Below, in pieces: positions 329 through 47,973 of a DNA stretch of 64,000 nt (its first letter is position 1; the number at the start of each line of letters is the position of its first letter). Location of the stretch: contig NC_010175.1 in assembly GCF_000018865.1 (NCBI RefSeq), positions 3,410,001 through 3,474,000 on the forward strand, read 5' to 3'. The notes below the pieces were generated by a model, which did no database searches, had not been told where the DNA came from, and saw only the letters and a program-made list of their open reading frames with translations. Origin of the DNA: Chloroflexus aurantiacus J-10-fl (GTDB lineage: Bacteria; Chloroflexota; Chloroflexia; Chloroflexales; Chloroflexaceae). Both the position numbers and the translations under genes were made by a program.

Positions 329-1609
329 CTAGGATTGCAAAGAGATAACACCACCGGACGAACCGGGCATCATACCGGTCAGCCAGATCGGATCGGAGCC
401 GAGTGGATCGAGACGGGCATGGCGTTGCAGAGCGCGGGTAAAGGATGTCACCAGATTATTGACGCCGGCCCAGCCGTGAATGGGGAGAAAACAATATTCA
501 GTACCCCACTTGGCAACCGTTCCCTGACCGACCAGCGGATTGGTGGTGATGATGTTGGAAATAATCAGATCGGGCTTTGTCTCGGTAATTGTGCGCAACT
601 GGCGATGGAAATTGGCCTGTTCGACGAGACGGACTCCATCGAGTGCCGCCAGCTCGGCGGCGTGGAAGCGGCGATTGATGTAGGGGGTAGAGCACTCGAC
701 AACTTCGGCTCCACACGCCTTGAGAAAACGAGCCAGTGGCAATTCCATCAGCGTATCACTGGCGAAGAAAATCTTCTTACCGCGCAGCAGATCGGTATGA
801 TGTTTAATCCGCTCCCAGGCTGCCGCCTCGCGCTCACTCAGATCGACCTGCATCCCAAACTGAGCTGCCAAATCTTCCCAGAAGCGACGGGTTCCATCAG
901 GGCCGAAGGGGAACAACGAAGAGAGCACCGTGCAGCCACGTTCATTGCGCAATTGGGTCGCGGTCTTGTGCAGATAGGGTTGGAGCGGGGCAATGACAGT
1001 CCCCGGTCCAATTGGTGGCAACTCGGTGAAATGGCTGGCGGGCAAGAAACCGGCGACCGGAATGCCCAGGCGTGCCGCTTCGAGCGAAAAGTCATCGGCA
1101 ATCGCATCATTGACCGAGCCAAGGAAAACCACCCGCTTATCGTCCGGTGGTGCCGGTGGGCAGAAGGGGATCAGCGCCTGCAACACCGAATCCTCGCTCT
1201 GCGAAAACGTATAATCGAGGCCAGAGGCCGGCACAAACAGCACCGGCACTTCCGGTGTGCTGACCGAAGCTGCCAGTCCTTCAAACTCAACCTTCATCAC
1301 TTCAGGCGTACACGACGAGAGCAGAAAGATCACGGAGGGATGGTGCTCGCGCTTGATCTCCTCGATCTGGGCCGAGATGTCGGGTTGTGATGAACTCAGG
1401 TCAGACTCTTCGAGCAGTGAGACCGCAAAACGTGGTCGGGCGAAGATCATCACGCCGAGCGTATTTTGCAGCAGATGAGCGCAGGTATGGGTGCCGAGGA
1501 TGAGGAAGAAGCTGTCTTTGATCTTCTGATAGAGCCAGCCGACACTGACCAGGCCGCAGAACGAGTGGTAAATACCATCCTCACGGATGGGAGTCGCTTT
1601 TGACTGCAT
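329..1609 (-). CDS. bchN: BchN, light-independent protochlorophyllide reductase subunit N
   Basis: Subunit N of dark-operative protochlorophyllide oxidoreductase, reducing ring D of protochlorophyllide in bacteriochlorophyll synthesis. The 426-residue product has the three expected cluster-ligand cysteines: Cys18 (HSFCGL), Cys43 (THTCAHL) and Cys100 (LSSCTP). The ATG at 1609 was chosen over an in-frame start 90 bp upstream because it has a GAGGAGG-type ribosome site directly before it and begins at the family's usual N-terminus ([19 protein letters not shown]). It is first in a bchN-bchB transcript. A GTAGT-N11-ACTAC inverted repeat lies 18 bp upstream of the ATG. Confidence 0.95.
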
Positions 1610-40568: not shown

Positions 40569-41255
40569 GTGCTAGAGCTATCTCAGCACAAGGCTCAATT
40601 GCGTGACTATTTCAACGGTTTGGGCTTTGAACGCTGGTCGGCTATTTACGGGAATGCCCCTCTTTCACTGGTGAGGCAGAGCATTCGTGACGGTCATAAA
40701 CGCATGCTGGCGATTGCCGATTCGTGGCTTGACGATCAACCACCACCAACCACTGCGCTCGATGTTGGCTGTGGCGTTGGCCTGTTTAGTCTGATGCTGG
40801 CCCGTCGTGGCTATCGGGTTCGGGCCGCTGATATTGCACCGCAAATGGTCGCTGCAACGGCGCAGGCAGTTGCTGAGGCCGGGCTGTCTGATCGAGTTGA
40901 GTGCATCGAGGCCGATATTGAATCGTTACGTGAACCGGCCCAGCTTGTCGCCTGTTTCGATGTCTTGATCCACTACCCTCAGCCGGCCTTTGGTCAGCTC
41001 TGCACCCATCTGGCAAAGCTTACCGAACATACTCTGCTTCTCACATACGCTCCCTACAGCACGCTGCTGGCTGCGCTACACCGGATCGGCGGCTGGTTCC
41101 CGCATAGTCAACGACGCACCGAGATTCAGATGATCCGCGATCACGAGGTGGCTGCAATGCTGAGCCAGTCTGGTTTGCAGGTACGGCGGGTGCAACCAAT
41201 CCGTAGCCGGTTTTATCACGTTACGTTGATTGAAGCCGTGCGGCTAGTTTCATAA
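40569..41255 (+). CDS. bchM: Magnesium-protoporphyrin IX O-methyltransferase BchM
   Basis: SAM-dependent methylation of the C13 propionate of Mg-protoporphyrin IX. 228 residues. N-terminal YFNGLGFERWSAIYG, SAM motif I ALDVGCGVGLFSLMLARRG (residues 63-81), then VECIEADIES, and ALHRIGGWFPHSQRRTEIQMI and SRFYHVTLIEAVR near the end, all typical of BchM/ChlM. GTG start with AGGAGG upstream. First gene of the operon; the following gene is 36 bp away. Confidence 0.94.
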   Translation: MLELSQHKAQLRDYFNGLGFERWSAIYGNAPLSLVRQSIRDGHKRMLAIADSWLDDQPPPTTALDVGCGVGLFSLMLARRGYRVRAADIAPQMVAATAQAVAEAGLSDRVECIEADIESLREPAQLVACFDVLIHYPQPAFGQLCTHLAKLTEHTLLLTYAPYSTLLAALHRIGGWFPHSQRRTEIQMIRDHEVAAMLSQSGLQVRRVQPIRSRFYHVTLIEAVRLVS

Positions 41256-41280: not shown

Positions 41281-41291
41281 AGGAGTACACT

Positions 41292-41627
41292 ATGCGACGA
41301 TTGCTGGCATTGCTGGCCCTTGGTGCAGCCGCGTTTGCACTGCACAAGTGGTACAACCGTGAGGTGTTGCTGGAAGGTGAGGGCTTTGTTCGCTTGCAGA
41401 GCGAGCACGAACATTTTCACTTCCACGTCGATCTGCCACCCGGTATGGAGATTCAACCTGGCGATACGCTCGAAATTATGCATCTCCCGCCGACCGAAGA
41501 TGGTCGTACCAGCGGCGAGATCTGCTATCGCAGCCCGATCCGGCTCTACAAGGCCAGTGCCCTCCGCCGTTTTCTGACCAAGAAGAGCAGTCTGGTCGAG
41601 ATTAACGAGCTGGTTGAGCATCCGTAG
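41292..41627 (+). CDS. Small membrane-anchored protein of unknown function between bchM and acsF
   Basis: 111 residues, family not recognised. An N-terminal hydrophobic helix (residues 1-17, MRRLLALLALGAAAFAL) is followed by a soluble, mostly beta-looking domain with a histidine cluster (EHEHFHFHVDLPPGM, residues about 39-53) and a basic KASALRRFLTKKSSLVEINELVEHP tail. The ATG is preceded by AGGAG. The position between the methyltransferase and the cyclase, whose substrate is the BchM product, suggests a role with AcsF. In other phototrophs AcsF works with BciE or Ycf54; similarity to either was not seen. Function is inference. Confidence 0.75.
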   Translation: MRRLLALLALGAAAFALHKWYNREVLLEGEGFVRLQSEHEHFHFHVDLPPGMEIQPGDTLEIMHLPPTEDGRTSGEICYRSPIRLYKASALRRFLTKKSSLVEINELVEHP

Positions 41628-41692
41628 TGTTGGTGATCGGGCCTTTGGCCCGTGAGACGTCAGGAATTGCCAGATCGCAAAGGAGCGCTGAA

Positions 41693-42820
41693 ATGTTCTG
41701 GATTAATCCGCTGATGATGGAAATGCCCGGTGAGTTTAGCCGCACGACTCGCCATGCGCTGAAGGAAGCTATCCTCTCACCTCGCTTCTACACGACCGAT
41801 TTTAAGGCTATCGACAGACTGGAAATCGACCGCAATGGGCTGCGCGACGAGTTCGATTGGATCCGCGACGAGTTTGCCTACGATTACAACCGCACCCACT
41901 TCCGCCGCACCGATGAATTTTTGCAGGATTTCGATGATATGCCCGAACGCGATTCCTTTATCGATTTTCTTGAGCGTTCGTGTACTGCGGAGTTCAGCGG
42001 TTGTTTGCTCTATGCCGAGATGGTTAAGCATCTGCACGATCCGACGCTGCGGGCCATTTTCAAGTATATGAGCCGCGATGAAGGTCGGCACGCCGGCTTT
42101 CTCAACCGCACGATGGCCGATCTGAATGTGGCCCTCGATCTGACGGTGTTGCAGAAGCGGAAGAAGTATACCTACTTCCAACCGAAGTTTATCTTCTACT
42201 CCGTTTACCTGTCCGAAAAGATTGGCTATTCGCGCTACATCACTATCTATCGTCACCTCGAACGTAATCCGCAGTACTGCATCCATCCGATCTTCAAGTG
42301 GTTTGAGCAGTGGTGCAACGATGAATATCGCCACGGTGAATTCTTTGCCCTGCTGATGCGCTCGCAACCTGAGATGCTTGAGGGCGTTAACCGGCGCTGG
42401 ATCCGGTTCTTCTTGCTCGCTGTGTACGCGACGATGTATCTCAACGATGCGCGCCGATCCAATTTCTACGCCGCGCTCGGTCTCGACTGGCGTGACTACG
42501 ATCAGACGGTGATCCGGCTGTGCAACGATATTGCAACCCAGGTCTATCCCGAGACGATGAATCTCGATGATCCACGCTTCTTCGCCTACATGGATAAGCT
42601 GGTTGAATACGACCGGGCTTTGCGGGCGCTGGAGAGCCGGAAGGATCCGATTGCAATGGCCCATTCGACCCGCCTGAAAGCGGCAATTGCGCTCCGCCTG
42701 CTGGCTATCTATCGGTTGCCCACCCGTAAAACGACGGAGGCGATTCGCTGGAAGGGCTTGCCCGGCTTCCCCAATTATCCCGGTCCTAACCGTCCGCAGC
42801 GTGTGGTAGCAGCCGATTAG
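41693..42820 (+). CDS. acsF: Aerobic Mg-protoporphyrin IX monomethyl ester oxidative cyclase AcsF
   Basis: Oxygen-dependent diiron enzyme forming ring E of (bacterio)chlorophyll. 375 residues with the paired metal sites E-x2-H: Glu130-x2-His133 (SRDEGRHAGF) and Glu211-x2-His214 (NDEYRHGEFF), plus Glu100 in TAEFSGCLLYAEM. The start at ATG 41693 (MFWINPLMME) was chosen for AAAGGAG eight bases upstream; the frame is open to 41627 with unrelated sequence. In the operon bchM-orf-acsF-bchH. Implies that bacteriochlorophyll synthesis here can use oxygen. Confidence 0.96.
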   Translation: MFWINPLMMEMPGEFSRTTRHALKEAILSPRFYTTDFKAIDRLEIDRNGLRDEFDWIRDEFAYDYNRTHFRRTDEFLQDFDDMPERDSFIDFLERSCTAEFSGCLLYAEMVKHLHDPTLRAIFKYMSRDEGRHAGFLNRTMADLNVALDLTVLQKRKKYTYFQPKFIFYSVYLSEKIGYSRYITIYRHLERNPQYCIHPIFKWFEQWCNDEYRHGEFFALLMRSQPEMLEGVNRRWIRFFLLAVYATMYLNDARRSNFYAALGLDWRDYDQTVIRLCNDIATQVYPETMNLDDPRFFAYMDKLVEYDRALRALESRKDPIAMAHSTRLKAAIALRLLAIYRLPTRKTTEAIRWKGLPGFPNYPGPNRPQRVVAAD

Positions 42821-42880: not shown

Positions 42881-42940
42881 TCTGGCTCCGGTTTTGTCGC
42901 AATTCCGGTTTCGCCCGGTACGAGTGATGGGGAAATGCGC

Positions 42941-45900
42941 ATGCACGTTGTGGTGTTAACCATCGACGGTAATCATCGTCCGGCGCTGTTGGTGGCTGCC
43001 GAGCGGCTGCGCCGCGATCATAAGGTTGATCTGAGCTTGGCTATCTACGATGCGGCAACGTTGAGTAATGCCGCAGGATGGGCGAAACTCGACCGCGATC
43101 TGGCAAGGGCCGATCTGGTGTTCGGGGCACGCCTGTTCAGCGAAGACCTGGTGCGGCCACTGGTCGAACGATTGGCCCATTTTGAACGACCAACGCTGAT
43201 TATTACCTCAAATCCGGCACTGATCCGTTGTACCCGGATCGGTGGCTTTTCGTTGCGGCGCGAAAGCGAGAACGAACCGGGGCCACTTCGTCGTTGGGTG
43301 CAGAAGCTCCGACCGCAGGGTGGTGCAGGCGAGGCCCGGCGTCAATTGGCGATTTTGCGCAATTTAAGTAAGGTGTTGAAAGTTATCCCCGGCACGTCCC
43401 GCGATTTGTACACCTACATTACCAGTCATCAATACTGGCTGAATGCCTCGCCAGAGAATCTCTACCGCCTGCTTTGCGTGCTCATCGGTCGTTATGGCCC
43501 ATCGCCGCGCCCAAAGCTGCCACAGCTTGACCCACTAACCTATCCCGATACGGCGATCTACCACCCCGACGCGCCCGATCTCTTTACGTCGTTGAACGAT
43601 TACTACCGCTGGCGTGGAAAACGCATACCGTCTGCGGGTAAGGTTGGTATTCTGACCCTGCGGACGGTGGTGTTGAGTGGGAATACCCCGCATATTGATG
43701 CATTGGCCCGCGCTATTGAGGCGCGCGGGCTGGAAGCCCGTGTCGCCTACGCTGCCGGGCTTGATTTGCGTCCGCTGCTCGATAAGGAGCTGGCCGATGT
43801 CGACCTGCTGGTCAATGCAACCGGGTTTGCTCTGGTTGGTGGCCCAGCCGAGAGCCAGCCTCAGCAGGCTGCCGAGGCATTAACTCGCTTCGACCGTCCA
43901 TACCTCAGTCTGGTACCGCTGGCGTTTCAACGAATCGACGACTGGCGCGCCGATGATAACGGTCTGGTGCCGGTGCAGCAGGCGCTGAGTGTCGCCATTC
44001 CCGAACTGGAAGGTGCTGCCGAACCGCTGATCTTTGGCGGGCCGGCGGCTGATGGTCAGCGCTTTGCCCCAGCCCAGGCGGAAATCGAGCAGATTGCCGA
44101 CCGGATTGCGCGCCGGGTGGCCCTACGTCGGATGCCGAACGCGCAGAAGCGGCTGGCGGTGGTGATCTACAACTTTCCCCCGGCCCTGGGCACGGTTGGC
44201 ACTGCCGCCTATCTCGATGTCTTTGCCAGTCTGTTTCGTCTGTTACAGGCGCTGGCTGCCGACGGCTATCAGGTTGAGGTGCCGGAAAGCGTTGATGCGT
44301 TACGCCAGCTTCTGTTGGCCGATGGACCGGCCCACGGTGCCGATGCGCACATCGCCGATTGGCTCAGCGCGGACGAGTATCGCCGGCTCTTCCCGGCGTA
44401 TACCGACATCGAGCCGTACTGGGGACCGGCACCGGGTGATCTGCTGCGCGACAATCGTGGGATTCGGATTCTCGGTCGTCAGTTTGGAAATGTCTTTGTC
44501 GGGGTACAGCCCAGTTTTGGCTACGAGCGCGACCCAATGCGGTTGTTGCTGGCGAAAGATGCTGCCCCGAATCATGCCTTTGCCGCATTCTACACCTGGC
44601 TGATCCACAAATTCCGCGCCGATGCTGTCATTCATCTTGGCACACACGGCGCAATGGAGTTTATGCCGGGCAAGCAGGTTGGGTTGAGTGCCCGCTGCTG
44701 GCCGCTGCGCCTGATCGGGCCGTTGCCCAATTTCTACGTCTACAGTGTGAACAATCCGAGCGAGGCGGCGATTGCAAAGCGGCGCGGCGCGGCCACACTG
44801 GTGAGCTATCTGGTACCACCGGTGCAACAGGCAGGGCTGTACAAAGGGCTGCGGACGCTGCGCGATGCAATTGATCAGTTTGAACGCCATCCCGATCCTG
44901 CCCTGGTGAGCGATGTGCGCGAGCGGGCAGCGCAATTAGGCATTCCAATGGCGGCCAGTGGTGATGATTACGCTGATGTTGCCGGTCTGGCTCACGAGCT
45001 ACTGCGGATCGAGCAGCGCATGATCCCTCTCGGCCTGCACGTCCTCGGCCAACCCCCGGCACCGGCTGAGCTGGCCGACTTTCTCCTGCTCTACGCCAGT
45101 TTACAACCAGATGGTGGTTTGCCCGCTTTGATTGCCCGTGGGATGGGAATTGATTACGCTGATTTATGCACGCGCCTACATAGCGATCTGGCGGCCCAAA
45201 GCCAGCTTCGGTTGATCGAAGAGCGAGGAAGGGCGGCGATGCTGGCCTATGCCGAAGCCCCTGATGCCGAGACTGGCGCGCGTGCGGCATCCACTGCACT
45301 TGCCGATCTGGTGCCGGCAACCGCACTTCGCCCCCTCTGGCCGAAACTGGCTGAATTGCGTACCGGTCTGTTGACCAATCACGAGCTACGGAATCTGTTG
45401 CACGGTCTGCGTGGTGGCTTTATCCCTCCCTCCCCGAGCAATGATGCAGTCCGCAATCCGGCAGTGCTGCCGACCGGACGGAATCTGTTTGCACTCGATC
45501 CCTACCGGGTGCCTACGCCGGCCTCAATGCAGCGTGGTGAAGCGCTGGCCACTGAACTGATCGAGCGCTTGCGTCGTGAGCAGGGCCAGTTTCCTTCCAG
45601 CATCGCGATTGTGTTGTGGGGTACCGACAATCTCAAGAGCGATTGTGAAGCTGTCGCGCAGGTGCTGGCGCTGATCGGCGCCCGTCCGGTCATCGATGAA
45701 CTGGGCAATGTGTCCGATGTCGCGCTGCGCCCACTCGCCGAGCTAGGCCGCCCCCGGATCGACGTGGTGGTGACGGTGAGCGGTATCTTCCGCGATCTGC
45801 TCAGCCATCAGATGCGCCTGATTGATCGGGCGGCGTATCTGGCGGCAACTGCCGATGAGCCGCCAGAGTGGAATTTTGTGCGGGCGCATGCGCTCGCCCA

Positions 45901-46678
45901 GGTGGCCGAGACTGGCGTCTCGTTAGCCGAAGCGGCCATTCGCGTCTTCGCCAATGCGCCTGGAAGCTACGGAGCGAATGTCAACTTCCTGGTCGAGAGT
46001 GGTACCTGGGAGAACGACGACCAGCTCAGCGACGCCTTTCTATCACGCAAAAGCTTTGTTCGTACTGCTGATGGGCAATGGCGGGAAGCCCGTAGCTTGC
46101 TTGAAGGCGCGTTGCGTCACGTTCAGGCCACATTCCAGAACATCGACAGCTTTGAGGTGGGTCTCACGGATATTGACAACTACTACGAAAACCTGGGCGG
46201 GATGGCAAAGAGTGTTGCCAGGTTGCGTGGCGAACCGCCGCCGGTACTGGTTGCCGATGCGATCAGCTCACCCGGCGCCAGTCGCGTGGCCTCGATTGAA
46301 ACGATGCTGCGCCTTGAAACGCGGGCGAAATTGCTCAATCCGAAGTGGCACGAAGCCATGCTCGCCCACGGCTTTGCCGGTGTGCGCGAGATAGAGGCGC
46401 GTGTTGGTCATACCTATGGCTGGAGTGCAACAGCGAATGCGGTAGAAGACTGGGTGTACGACGAAATTGCAGCCACCTACGCACTCGACGACGCGATGCG
46501 TGAACGGATGGCCGCCCTCAATCCAACTGCGACCGCCGGGGTTGTTCGGCGTCTGCTCGAAGCTGCCGGACGTGGCTTCTGGGCTGCCGATGAAGCAACC
46601 CTCAACCGCCTGCAGGAAATCTATCAGGACCTCGAAGATCGACTGGAAGGCATTACCGAAGAGAGGAGTGTAGGATGA
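42941..46678 (+). CDS. bchH: Magnesium chelatase subunit H, BchH
   Basis: Porphyrin-binding subunit that inserts Mg2+ into protoporphyrin IX with BchI and BchD (neither in this window). 1245 residues, normal for BchH. Recognised by MHVVVLTIDGNHRPALLVAA, IIHLGTHGAMEFMPGKQVGLS-type DAVIHLGTHGAMEFMPGKQ, FYVYSVNNPSEAAIAKRRGAAT, LPTGRNLFALDPYRVP and EVGLTDIDNYYENLGGMAKSV. ATG 42941 is preferred over the ATG two codons upstream because GGGGA then lies seven bases away. Overlaps the next gene as ATGA. Confidence 0.95.
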   Translation: MHVVVLTIDGNHRPALLVAAERLRRDHKVDLSLAIYDAATLSNAAGWAKLDRDLARADLVFGARLFSEDLVRPLVERLAHFERPTLIITSNPALIRCTRIGGFSLRRESENEPGPLRRWVQKLRPQGGAGEARRQLAILRNLSKVLKVIPGTSRDLYTYITSHQYWLNASPENLYRLLCVLIGRYGPSPRPKLPQLDPLTYPDTAIYHPDAPDLFTSLNDYYRWRGKRIPSAGKVGILTLRTVVLSGNTPHIDALARAIEARGLEARVAYAAGLDLRPLLDKELADVDLLVNATGFALVGGPAESQPQQAAEALTRFDRPYLSLVPLAFQRIDDWRADDNGLVPVQQALSVAIPELEGAAEPLIFGGPAADGQRFAPAQAEIEQIADRIARRVALRRMPNAQKRLAVVIYNFPPALGTVGTAAYLDVFASLFRLLQALAADGYQVEVPESVDALRQLLLADGPAHGADAHIADWLSADEYRRLFPAYTDIEPYWGPAPGDLLRDNRGIRILGRQFGNVFVGVQPSFGYERDPMRLLLAKDAAPNHAFAAFYTWLIHKFRADAVIHLGTHGAMEFMPGKQVGLSARCWPLRLIGPLPNFYVYSVNNPSEAAIAKRRGAATLVSYLVPPVQQAGLYKGLRTLRDAIDQFERHPDPALVSDVRERAAQLGIPMAASGDDYADVAGLAHELLRIEQRMIPLGLHVLGQPPAPAELADFLLLYASLQPDGGLPALIARGMGIDYADLCTRLHSDLAAQSQLRLIEERGRAAMLAYAEAPDAETGARAASTALADLVPATALRPLWPKLAELRTGLLTNHELRNLLHGLRGGFIPPSPSNDAVRNPAVLPTGRNLFALDPYRVPTPASMQRGEALATELIERLRREQGQFPSSIAIVLWGTDNLKSDCEAVAQVLALIGARPVIDELGNVSDVALRPLAELGRPRIDVVVTVSGIFRDLLSHQMRLIDRAAYLAATADEPPEWNFVRAHALAQVAETGVSLAEAAIRVFANAPGSYGANVNFLVESGTWENDDQLSDAFLSRKSFVRTADGQWREARSLLEGALRHVQATFQNIDSFEVGLTDIDNYYENLGGMAKSVARLRGEPPPVLVADAISSPGASRVASIETMLRLETRAKLLNPKWHEAMLAHGFAGVREIEARVGHTYGWSATANAVEDWVYDEIAATYALDDAMRERMAALNPTATAGVVRRLLEAAGRGFWAADEATLNRLQEIYQDLEDRLEGITEERSVG

Positions 46679-47973
46679 GCTGGTTTAAGATGATTCGCCT
46701 TGGCATGTTGCACGTCGCGGTGGCGATTAGTCTGGTGCCGATTACCGGTGTCCTCAATCGGATTATGATCCACGAACTCGGTTTGATGGCCAGTATCGTT
46801 GCTGCCTTGATCATTCTTCCCCACCTCTTCTCGCCAATGCAGGTCTTTATCGGTCAGTTCTCTGATCGCCATCCGTTCTGGGGCTATCGGCGCACTCCGT
46901 ATATTGCATTAGGCTTACTGCTCTGCATCGGTGGTGCTGCTCTCACCCCCTTCGCTGCATTTGCAATGGATGCCAGCTTCTGGCCGGGGCTGGCGCTGGC
47001 GCTCCTCGTGTTCGGTATCTGGGGAGTGGGCTTCAATACTGCGGTTGTTTCGTATCTCTCGTTAGCCAGTGATATGTCTCCTTCACACCTGCGCTCGCGC
47101 ACGATTGCCGTCATGTGGTTTATGATGATTACGGCAGTGATTGGGACGGCGATTAGCACCGGTCGCGCACTGGAACCCTATTCGCCGGAGCGGTTAATCG
47201 AGGTCTTTGCCATCTGTGCTGGCGTGGCACTGACGGTTGGTGCACTCGGTTTAATCGGCCTTGAGCCGCGCAACGCAATCCCGCTGAGTCACGAAGAGCG
47301 CTACTCGGCTGCCGAGTCGGTGCGAACGGTTGTCCGTGATCCACTTGCGCGCCGGTTCTTCGTCTATCTGATGCTTATGCTGTCCGCTATCCTGGGTCAG
47401 GATGTCTTGCTCGAACCGTATGGCGCCCAGGCTTTTGGGATGGATGTGCGATCAACAACCCAATTGACCGCCGTCTGGGGTGGGGCAACGCTCCTTGCTC
47501 TGCTGTTGCATGGTGTTGTGTTCAGCCGTTGGCTCAGCAACAAGCGTGGCGCAATGATCGGCGGCTCGATTGCGGCGGTTGGTCTAACCTTGATCGCACT
47601 TAGCGGCATCTTGCATGTCGAGCCGTTGTTTGTTCCAGCGATTGCGCTGCTCGGTTTTGGTACCGGCATTGCAACAGCAACCAATCTGGCGCTAATGCTC
47701 GATATGACAACACCACAACAGGTTGGCCTCTTCATCGGCGCCTGGGGCGTTGCCGATGCTGCTGCCCGTGGTTTGGGCAACTTGCTGGCCGGCGTGATCC
47801 GTGATCTCGCGGCTCTGGTGGTGGGTTCTACCGGTGCATATGCCACAGTCTTTTTGATTGAAGCGCTTATCCTCTGTACGGCACTGGTGATGCTGCGGGC
47901 AATTGATGTGAGTGCCTTCCGTAGTCAGCGCCGCGAGCTGGGACAGTTGGTTGCCGCAATGGGCGATGCATAG
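46675..47973 (+). CDS. PucC/LhaA/Bch2-type major-facilitator membrane protein
   Basis: 432 residues, about 12 transmembrane helices. MIRLGMLHVAVAISLVPITGVLNRIMIHELG, PMQVFIGQFSDRHPFWGYRRTPYI and VGFNTAVVSYLSLASDMSPSHLRSRTIAVMWFMMI are hallmarks of the BCH2/PucC/LhaA family, which helps assemble light-harvesting or reaction-centre complexes, possibly by delivering bacteriochlorophyll. Stop-start overlap with bchH (ATGA) couples pigment synthesis to delivery. Which of the PucC-like roles applies cannot be decided from sequence. Confidence 0.93.
   Translation: MSWFKMIRLGMLHVAVAISLVPITGVLNRIMIHELGLMASIVAALIILPHLFSPMQVFIGQFSDRHPFWGYRRTPYIALGLLLCIGGAALTPFAAFAMDASFWPGLALALLVFGIWGVGFNTAVVSYLSLASDMSPSHLRSRTIAVMWFMMITAVIGTAISTGRALEPYSPERLIEVFAICAGVALTVGALGLIGLEPRNAIPLSHEERYSAAESVRTVVRDPLARRFFVYLMLMLSAILGQDVLLEPYGAQAFGMDVRSTTQLTAVWGGATLLALLLHGVVFSRWLSNKRGAMIGGSIAAVGLTLIALSGILHVEPLFVPAIALLGFGTGIATATNLALMLDMTTPQQVGLFIGAWGVADAAARGLGNLLAGVIRDLAALVVGSTGAYATVFLIEALILCTALVMLRAIDVSAFRSQRRELGQLVAAMGDA

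Follow-up and report, generated by a model that had tools for sequence, protein, structure and literature searches.

A BciE-like protein with a predicted membrane anchor is encoded beside acsF in Chloroflexus aurantiacus and other Chloroflexales

We propose that the 111-residue protein encoded directly upstream of acsF in Chloroflexus aurantiacus J-10-fl is probably a membrane-anchored auxiliary subunit, of the BciE type, of the AcsF cyclase. This reading follows from the homology of the protein to ORFs taken as BciE and from the bond of its gene to acsF. As judged from sequence comparison, the protein is a distant homologue of the open reading frame (ORF) that, in the photosynthesis clusters of Alphaproteobacteria, stands immediately before acsF, at the bciE position, and across the Chloroflexales its gene follows acsF, not phototrophy. 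What is new is a divergent and apparently anchored BciE homologue that is paired with acsF in this order. An initial annotation, made from the DNA alone, had placed a 111-residue ORF between bchM and acsF and had guessed at a partner of the AcsF cyclase. The ORF is present as claimed (41292-41627, plus strand), and the partnership now has strong support: in the Chloroflexales the small gene occurs strictly together with acsF and is lost jointly with it. All coordinates refer to the window, that is, the whole stretch of 64,000 nucleotides that was analysed.

The small gene and its neighbours

The gene row in the window runs bchM, small gene, acsF, bchH and a gene for a PucC-family protein. The features on which the argument draws are the following, all on the plus strand.

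40569-41255, +, bchM, Mg-protoporphyrin IX methyltransferase (TIGR02021, 204 bits)
41281-41285, +, Shine-Dalgarno-like AGGAG preceding the ATG of the small gene (sequence)
41292-41627, +, small gene, BciE-like, 111 aa, probably Caur_2589 (ORF, profile matches, purifying selection)
41292-41357, +, predicted N-terminal hydrophobic anchor helix, residues 1-22, which the alphaproteobacterial ORFs are without (AF2, alignment)
41385-41615, +, BciE-like domain, residues 32-108 (hhalign of the two profiles)
41403-41426, +, EHEHFHFH segment, residues 38-45, with His at alternate positions, mostly on the predicted strand 41-47 (alignment, AF2)
41693-42820, +, acsF (NF010172, 518 bits; TIGR02029, 435 bits; longest ORF from GTG 41627)
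42935-46678, +, bchH, Mg-chelatase subunit H (profile match)

The small gene runs from ATG to TAG over 111 codons of the plus strand. An excerpt of PMC3150298 gives bchM as Caur_2588 and acsF as Caur_2590, so the gene between them is probably Caur_2589, a tag that was absent from the literature in a full-text search. When it is compared with four homologues from the genus Chloroflexus, the differences at codon positions 1/2/3 amount to 6/7/43, 7/5/41, 7/3/43 and 3/2/34, and dN/dS lies at about 0.03-0.05; this is a real gene under strong purifying selection. An ORF of 114 aa overlaps it in antisense, and might lead one to suspect that the small gene is a spurious ORF or an antisense artefact. 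However, the third-position excess and the low dN/dS argue against such an artefact, as does the presence of the small gene in 37 of 82 Chloroflexales genomes, and the minus-strand frame, open along the gene in this genome, has stops in 5 of 7 homologues. On the codon-position pattern, dN/dS and the broken antisense frame we have ruled the artefact out, and consider its probability negligible. No Pfam or NCBIfam family matches the protein above the cut-off, the best being CZB (E 0.29) and PFE-CTERM (E 0.2), and a scan for promoters and terminators gave results no better than shuffles.

Two observations concern the neighbouring genes. For acsF, the ATG at 41693 (375 aa) is a more likely start than the GTG at 41627, since it is preceded at a fitting distance by AAGGAG (41680-41685); the GTG, from which the longest acsF ORF begins, overlaps the stop of the small gene by one base, and an annotation begun there would be too long. 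At the other end, the PucC-family gene (46675-47973) shares its first 4 bases with the end of bchH, so that the bch row extends past bchH.

Homology to the bciE-position ORF and predicted anatomy

BciE is an auxiliary subunit of the AcsF cyclase in the Alphaproteobacteria, among the purple bacteria; it was reportedly named in a 2017 PNAS paper, and the Rhodobacter protein is, we presume, Rsp_6110. For comparison, acsF was found in 11 plasmid records, of which the 9 annotated alphaproteobacterial ones were examined, the other two being a Kovacikia record (a cyanobacterium, no annotation) and a partial Sulfitobacter match. An ORF of 96-98 codons, unnamed in the records, stands between puhC and acsF in all 9, and we take these ORFs as BciE on the basis of gene order. 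For Myxococcota, an excerpt of PMC10576062 gives puhBC-bciE-acsF-puhE as the order of the genes, and an excerpt of PMC6052148 records the D. shibae ORF between puhC and acsF (Dshi_3543) only as hypothetical.

It had been stated at the outset that the small protein bears no similarity to BciE, and a third, lineage-specific cyclase subunit had been suggested in its place. The statement was wrong, the similarity being seen with profiles or with the bciE-position ORF of a sphingomonad, and the suggestion is not supported. BLASTP of the small protein against the Novosphingobium ORF gives E=1e-6 at 23% identity over 77 residues, and hhalign gives 93.9% against the same ORF and 81.7% against that of Roseobacter. 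Between the Chloroflexales and the alphaproteobacterial profiles, hhalign reports a probability of 94.6%, E 6.7e-8 and a score of 45.8 over 75 columns, as against 13.8 for the reversed profile and 22.1 for the best of 200 column shuffles. The strongest test of homology was a blind one, in which a profile built from the alphaproteobacterial ORFs alone was run in six frames over the 82 Chloroflexales genomes with matches taken up to E of 1. The small gene came out as the top match in 36 of the 37 acsF-bearing genomes (E 2.7e-5 to 0.018) and was missed in one, G431; the best match among the 45 other genomes had E 0.156. Across 19 aligned rows, H45, V46, P56-G57-D58, G75, A88, E106 and L107 are invariant.

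The hydrophobic N-terminal segment and the histidine-rich segment, from both of which the initial annotation had argued, are there. The former, a predicted anchor, is a stretch of 14-18 residues without a charged residue or His in 35 of 37 homologues, and the AF2 model makes residues 2-22 a helix; these statements cover 35 of the 37 rows, G370 and G420 having been left out. Flanking charges in the 35 rows are +1 to +2 on the N side and -2 to +1 on the C side, a pattern that under the positive-inside rule would lean towards N-in/C-out. With such a topology the domain would be separated from a cytoplasmic AcsF, an objection that falls away if the short helix is monotopic. The EHEHFHFH segment occupies residues 38-45, and all 20 of the aligned homologues share its H39, H41, H43 and H45. 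Its strict pattern holds in 35 of 37 rows, with G405 showing a Phe-to-Leu change while keeping all four His, and the G370 row left out. The Novosphingobium ORF reads HFHAHV at this place, and of the four His only the last is kept in every one of the alphaproteobacterial bciE-position ORFs (9 of 9).

The AF2 model itself, built on a five-sequence alignment, is weak (mean pLDDT 72.4, pTM 0.53); beyond the N-terminal helix it predicts strands at 26-38, 41-47, 59-62 and 76-86 and a helix at 90-98. Searched with this model, Foldseek returned E 0.6 for its best solved structure, and VIA-align gave Z of at most 3.7 for phage tailspikes and 2.1-3.3 for ferredoxin-reductase chains. No solved structure was thus matched with confidence, and a likeness to either of these is not taken as evidence.

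Co-occurrence and joint loss with acsF

A scan for close relatives over the genome contigs of 84,980 species yielded 7 loci, all titled Chloroflexus, Roseiflexus or Chloroflexota, and tblastn of the small protein against plasmids yielded one chance Rhodococcus match (E 0.5). Among 400 sampled Chloroflexota genomes, the small protein and AcsF each match 22: both genes are present in 20, both are remnants in G024, acsF stands alone in G281, and the protein match in G002 (E 9e-4) is a chance one, dropped on account of an internal stop and a frame that looks like an unrelated protein. Counted over the cut-off, 20 of the 21 acsF genomes of this sample carry the small gene. Matches of the joint profile at E 0.006-0.1 in 11 genomes outside the Chloroflexales were collectively taken as chance. 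Homologues common in non-phototrophs, which had been named in advance as evidence against a cyclase partner, were not found within Chloroflexota; beyond that phylum, this statement covers the close-relative scan and the plasmids.

The Chloroflexales set consists of 82 genomes, with bchM over the cut-off in 50 and, when the split or partial genes of G238 and G406 are added, present in 52. AcsF is encoded over the cut-off in 37 of the 82 (in G409 as three frame-shifted pieces), with one remnant in G024, and the small gene is present in the very same 37 genomes, G024 and G335 having remnants of it; the 30 genomes of the 82 outside the bchM-bearing 52 gave no match for the small gene. Among those 52, all 37 with acsF carry the small gene, and 0 of the 15 without intact acsF have it intact (Fisher p 2e-13, for genomes that are related and not independent samples). 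These 15 retain the alternative cyclase, BchE, which is over the cut-off in 14 of them and in two pieces in the remaining one, G408.

The two genes are also linked physically. In all 37 genomes the small gene shares a contig with acsF and lies upstream of it, 39-353 nt from the acsF profile match; it shares a contig with bchM in 33 of the 37. In three genomes from two genera (G206, G410 and G407) neither bchM nor bchH accompanies the pair within the 8-10 kb read, which points to the small gene plus acsF as the functional unit. The ORF upstream of the pair in G206 encodes an unrelated membrane protein.

We also note that acsF, the gene of the oxygen-dependent cyclase, was lost repeatedly among bchM-bearing Chloroflexales (G012, G024, G214, G253, G260, G288, G335, G347, G353, G401, G402, G406, G408, G415 and G416). 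Four genera (g2, g7, g13 and g225) contain genomes with the loss as well as genomes with the intact pair, which implies at least four separate losses, provided that the genera are natural groups and that none of them regained the pair. Of the 15 loss genomes, 13 have bchM and bchH side by side, with neither the small gene nor acsF intact between them, and in G406 and G416 no bchH was found in the stretch read. Four of the 15 (G024, G288, G335 and G415) keep a scar of acsF. G335 bears a single deletion, with bchM and bchH retained: the small gene breaks off after 34-36 codons and runs on into the tail of acsF, and the fusion leaves an open, chimeric frame of 78 codons between bchM and bchH (locus L067, about 1075-1311, minus strand). 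G024 shows two lesions: in the small gene the opening ~74 codons can no longer be recognised, and acsF is missing codons 81-346, again with bchM and bchH retained. Adjacent genes can of course vanish in one deletion without any shared function, and for G335 a contiguous deletion could be explanation enough. It does not account for the fact that 0 of 82 genomes keep one gene intact without the other.

Two further genomes deserve separate mention. G432 is one of the four exceptions to contig sharing with bchM: its bchM contig, C554, ends inside the first part of the small gene, at about codon 36. This break is near the fusion point of G335, and another contig, C8, holds an intact pair (the two contigs give loci L070 and L107), so that the sample may possibly represent a mixture of cells that carry the deletion and cells that do not, or else a coincidence of contig ends. 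G281 (L050/L147) is the only acsF-bearing genome of the 400-genome sample without the small gene. The joint profile found no BciE-like gene in it at E<=1, nor was one found in the 12 kb around acsF, and Ycf54 gave no match at E<=1. In an AcsF tree with few outside lineages, where long branches meet and which we use for this point only, the G281 enzyme does not group with those of the Chloroflexales. G281 provides a natural AcsF-only test case within the Chloroflexota.

Proposed role and comparison with known cyclases

Under the reading that we favour, a small, mainly beta domain would act as the auxiliary subunit of the diiron cyclase AcsF. The protein would bind AcsF and, by analogy with alphaproteobacterial BciE, would be needed for cyclase activity, raise it or stabilise it; the N-terminal helix may tether the cyclase complex to the membrane, and the conserved His face may serve either at the interface with AcsF or as a site for a metal.

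Other readings are conceivable. One is that the protein, as a third cyclase factor peculiar to this lineage, has no relation to BciE and resembles it by position only, as the lack of any Pfam or NCBIfam match over the cut-off and the possession of an anchor and a His segment that most reference ORFs lack might suggest. We consider this quite improbable, given a profile score far above that of shuffles, a similarity that is collinear over 75 columns, and the top rank in 36 of 37 acsF-bearing genomes in the blind search. Another is that it is a general factor for bacteriochlorophyll or photosystem assembly, sitting in the bch row by chance. The gene does lie beside bchM and acsF on one contig in 33 of 37 genomes, but it is found apart from bchM and bchH and never apart from acsF, and all 15 bchM-bearing genomes without intact acsF have no intact copy, yet 14 of them hold BchE over the cut-off; we regard a general assembly role as very improbable indeed.

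A third reading, unlikely in our view but the most probable of these alternatives, is that the protein is a BciE homologue that acts on AcsF stability, iron loading or membrane or chlorosome placement, and not on the cyclase reaction itself. The four alternating His, invariant in 20 of 20 homologues with three of them on one predicted strand, and of which only the last is kept throughout the 9 bciE-position ORFs, could then hand iron to the diiron site of AcsF; the metal site that this calls for is itself putative. As regards the chlorosome, excerpts of PMC3150298 and PMC4944227, citing a 2009 paper, report C. aurantiacus AcsF from chlorosome fractions under anoxic growth. Roseiflexus, described in an excerpt of PMC13025772 as without chlorosomes, keeps the small gene at a locus titled Roseiflexus sp. 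(L007), so that a chlorosome role would not be general, and we set it low.

The auxiliary-subunit reading, which we continue to prefer, runs contrary to the excerpted text of a 2026 review, in which AcsF is the sole cyclase component in Chloroflexi and these bacteria are placed in the AcsF-only class (PMC13297055). In an excerpt of another 2026 paper (PMC13025772), the AcsF tree joins the Chloroflexi with the purple bacteria in a lineage separate from that of the Cyanobacteria, and such a shared lineage would fit an old shared partner. It is tempting, although we would put the chances at somewhat less than even, to go further and regard BciE not as an innovation of the Alphaproteobacteria but as an old subunit of the anoxygenic AcsF lineage that was kept in anchored form in Chloroflexota, with the AcsF of Chloroflexus and Roseiflexus depending on it, the AcsF-only class being derived or narrower than supposed and the three-class scheme of oxygen-dependent cyclases in need of redrawing. 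If dependence of AcsF on the small protein is confirmed, two phyla or more would rely on a subunit of the BciE type, whose age and losses would then matter for how oxygen-dependent bacteriochlorophyll synthesis spread. The anchored form would also offer a way to study how the diiron enzyme is held at the membrane.

Three known systems invite comparison. Ycf54/LCAA, the subunit of oxygenic AcsF (PF10674), is like the small protein a small auxiliary protein tied to AcsF, and is described in an excerpt of PMC13297055 as soluble, with a four-stranded sheet flanked by helices. The small protein is without sequence match to it (no PF10674 match at E<=1), and Ycf54 was over the cut-off in 0 of 5 genomes tested, with stray matches at E 0.135-0.62 in 3 of the 5. 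The AcsF-only cyclase of the Rubrivivax gelatinosus class is where excerpts of PMC13297055 and PMC7319587 assign the AcsF of Chloroflexi, the latter defining the class as "anoxygenic phototrophs excluding Alphaproteobacteria", and among the matches listed for full-text literature with few subscription journals we found no report of BciE in Chloroflexi; in contrast to that class, Chloroflexales acsF is accompanied by the small gene in 37 of 37 genomes. The closest likeness is to BciE, with which the small protein shares a gene position directly upstream of acsF and a soluble domain of similar size, collinear in homology over ~75 columns. It differs from BciE in its N-terminal hydrophobic anchor of ~22 residues, in four invariant His of which the reference ORFs always keep one, and in the setting of its gene, which belongs to a bchM-acsF-bchH row, whereas bciE belongs to the puh operon.
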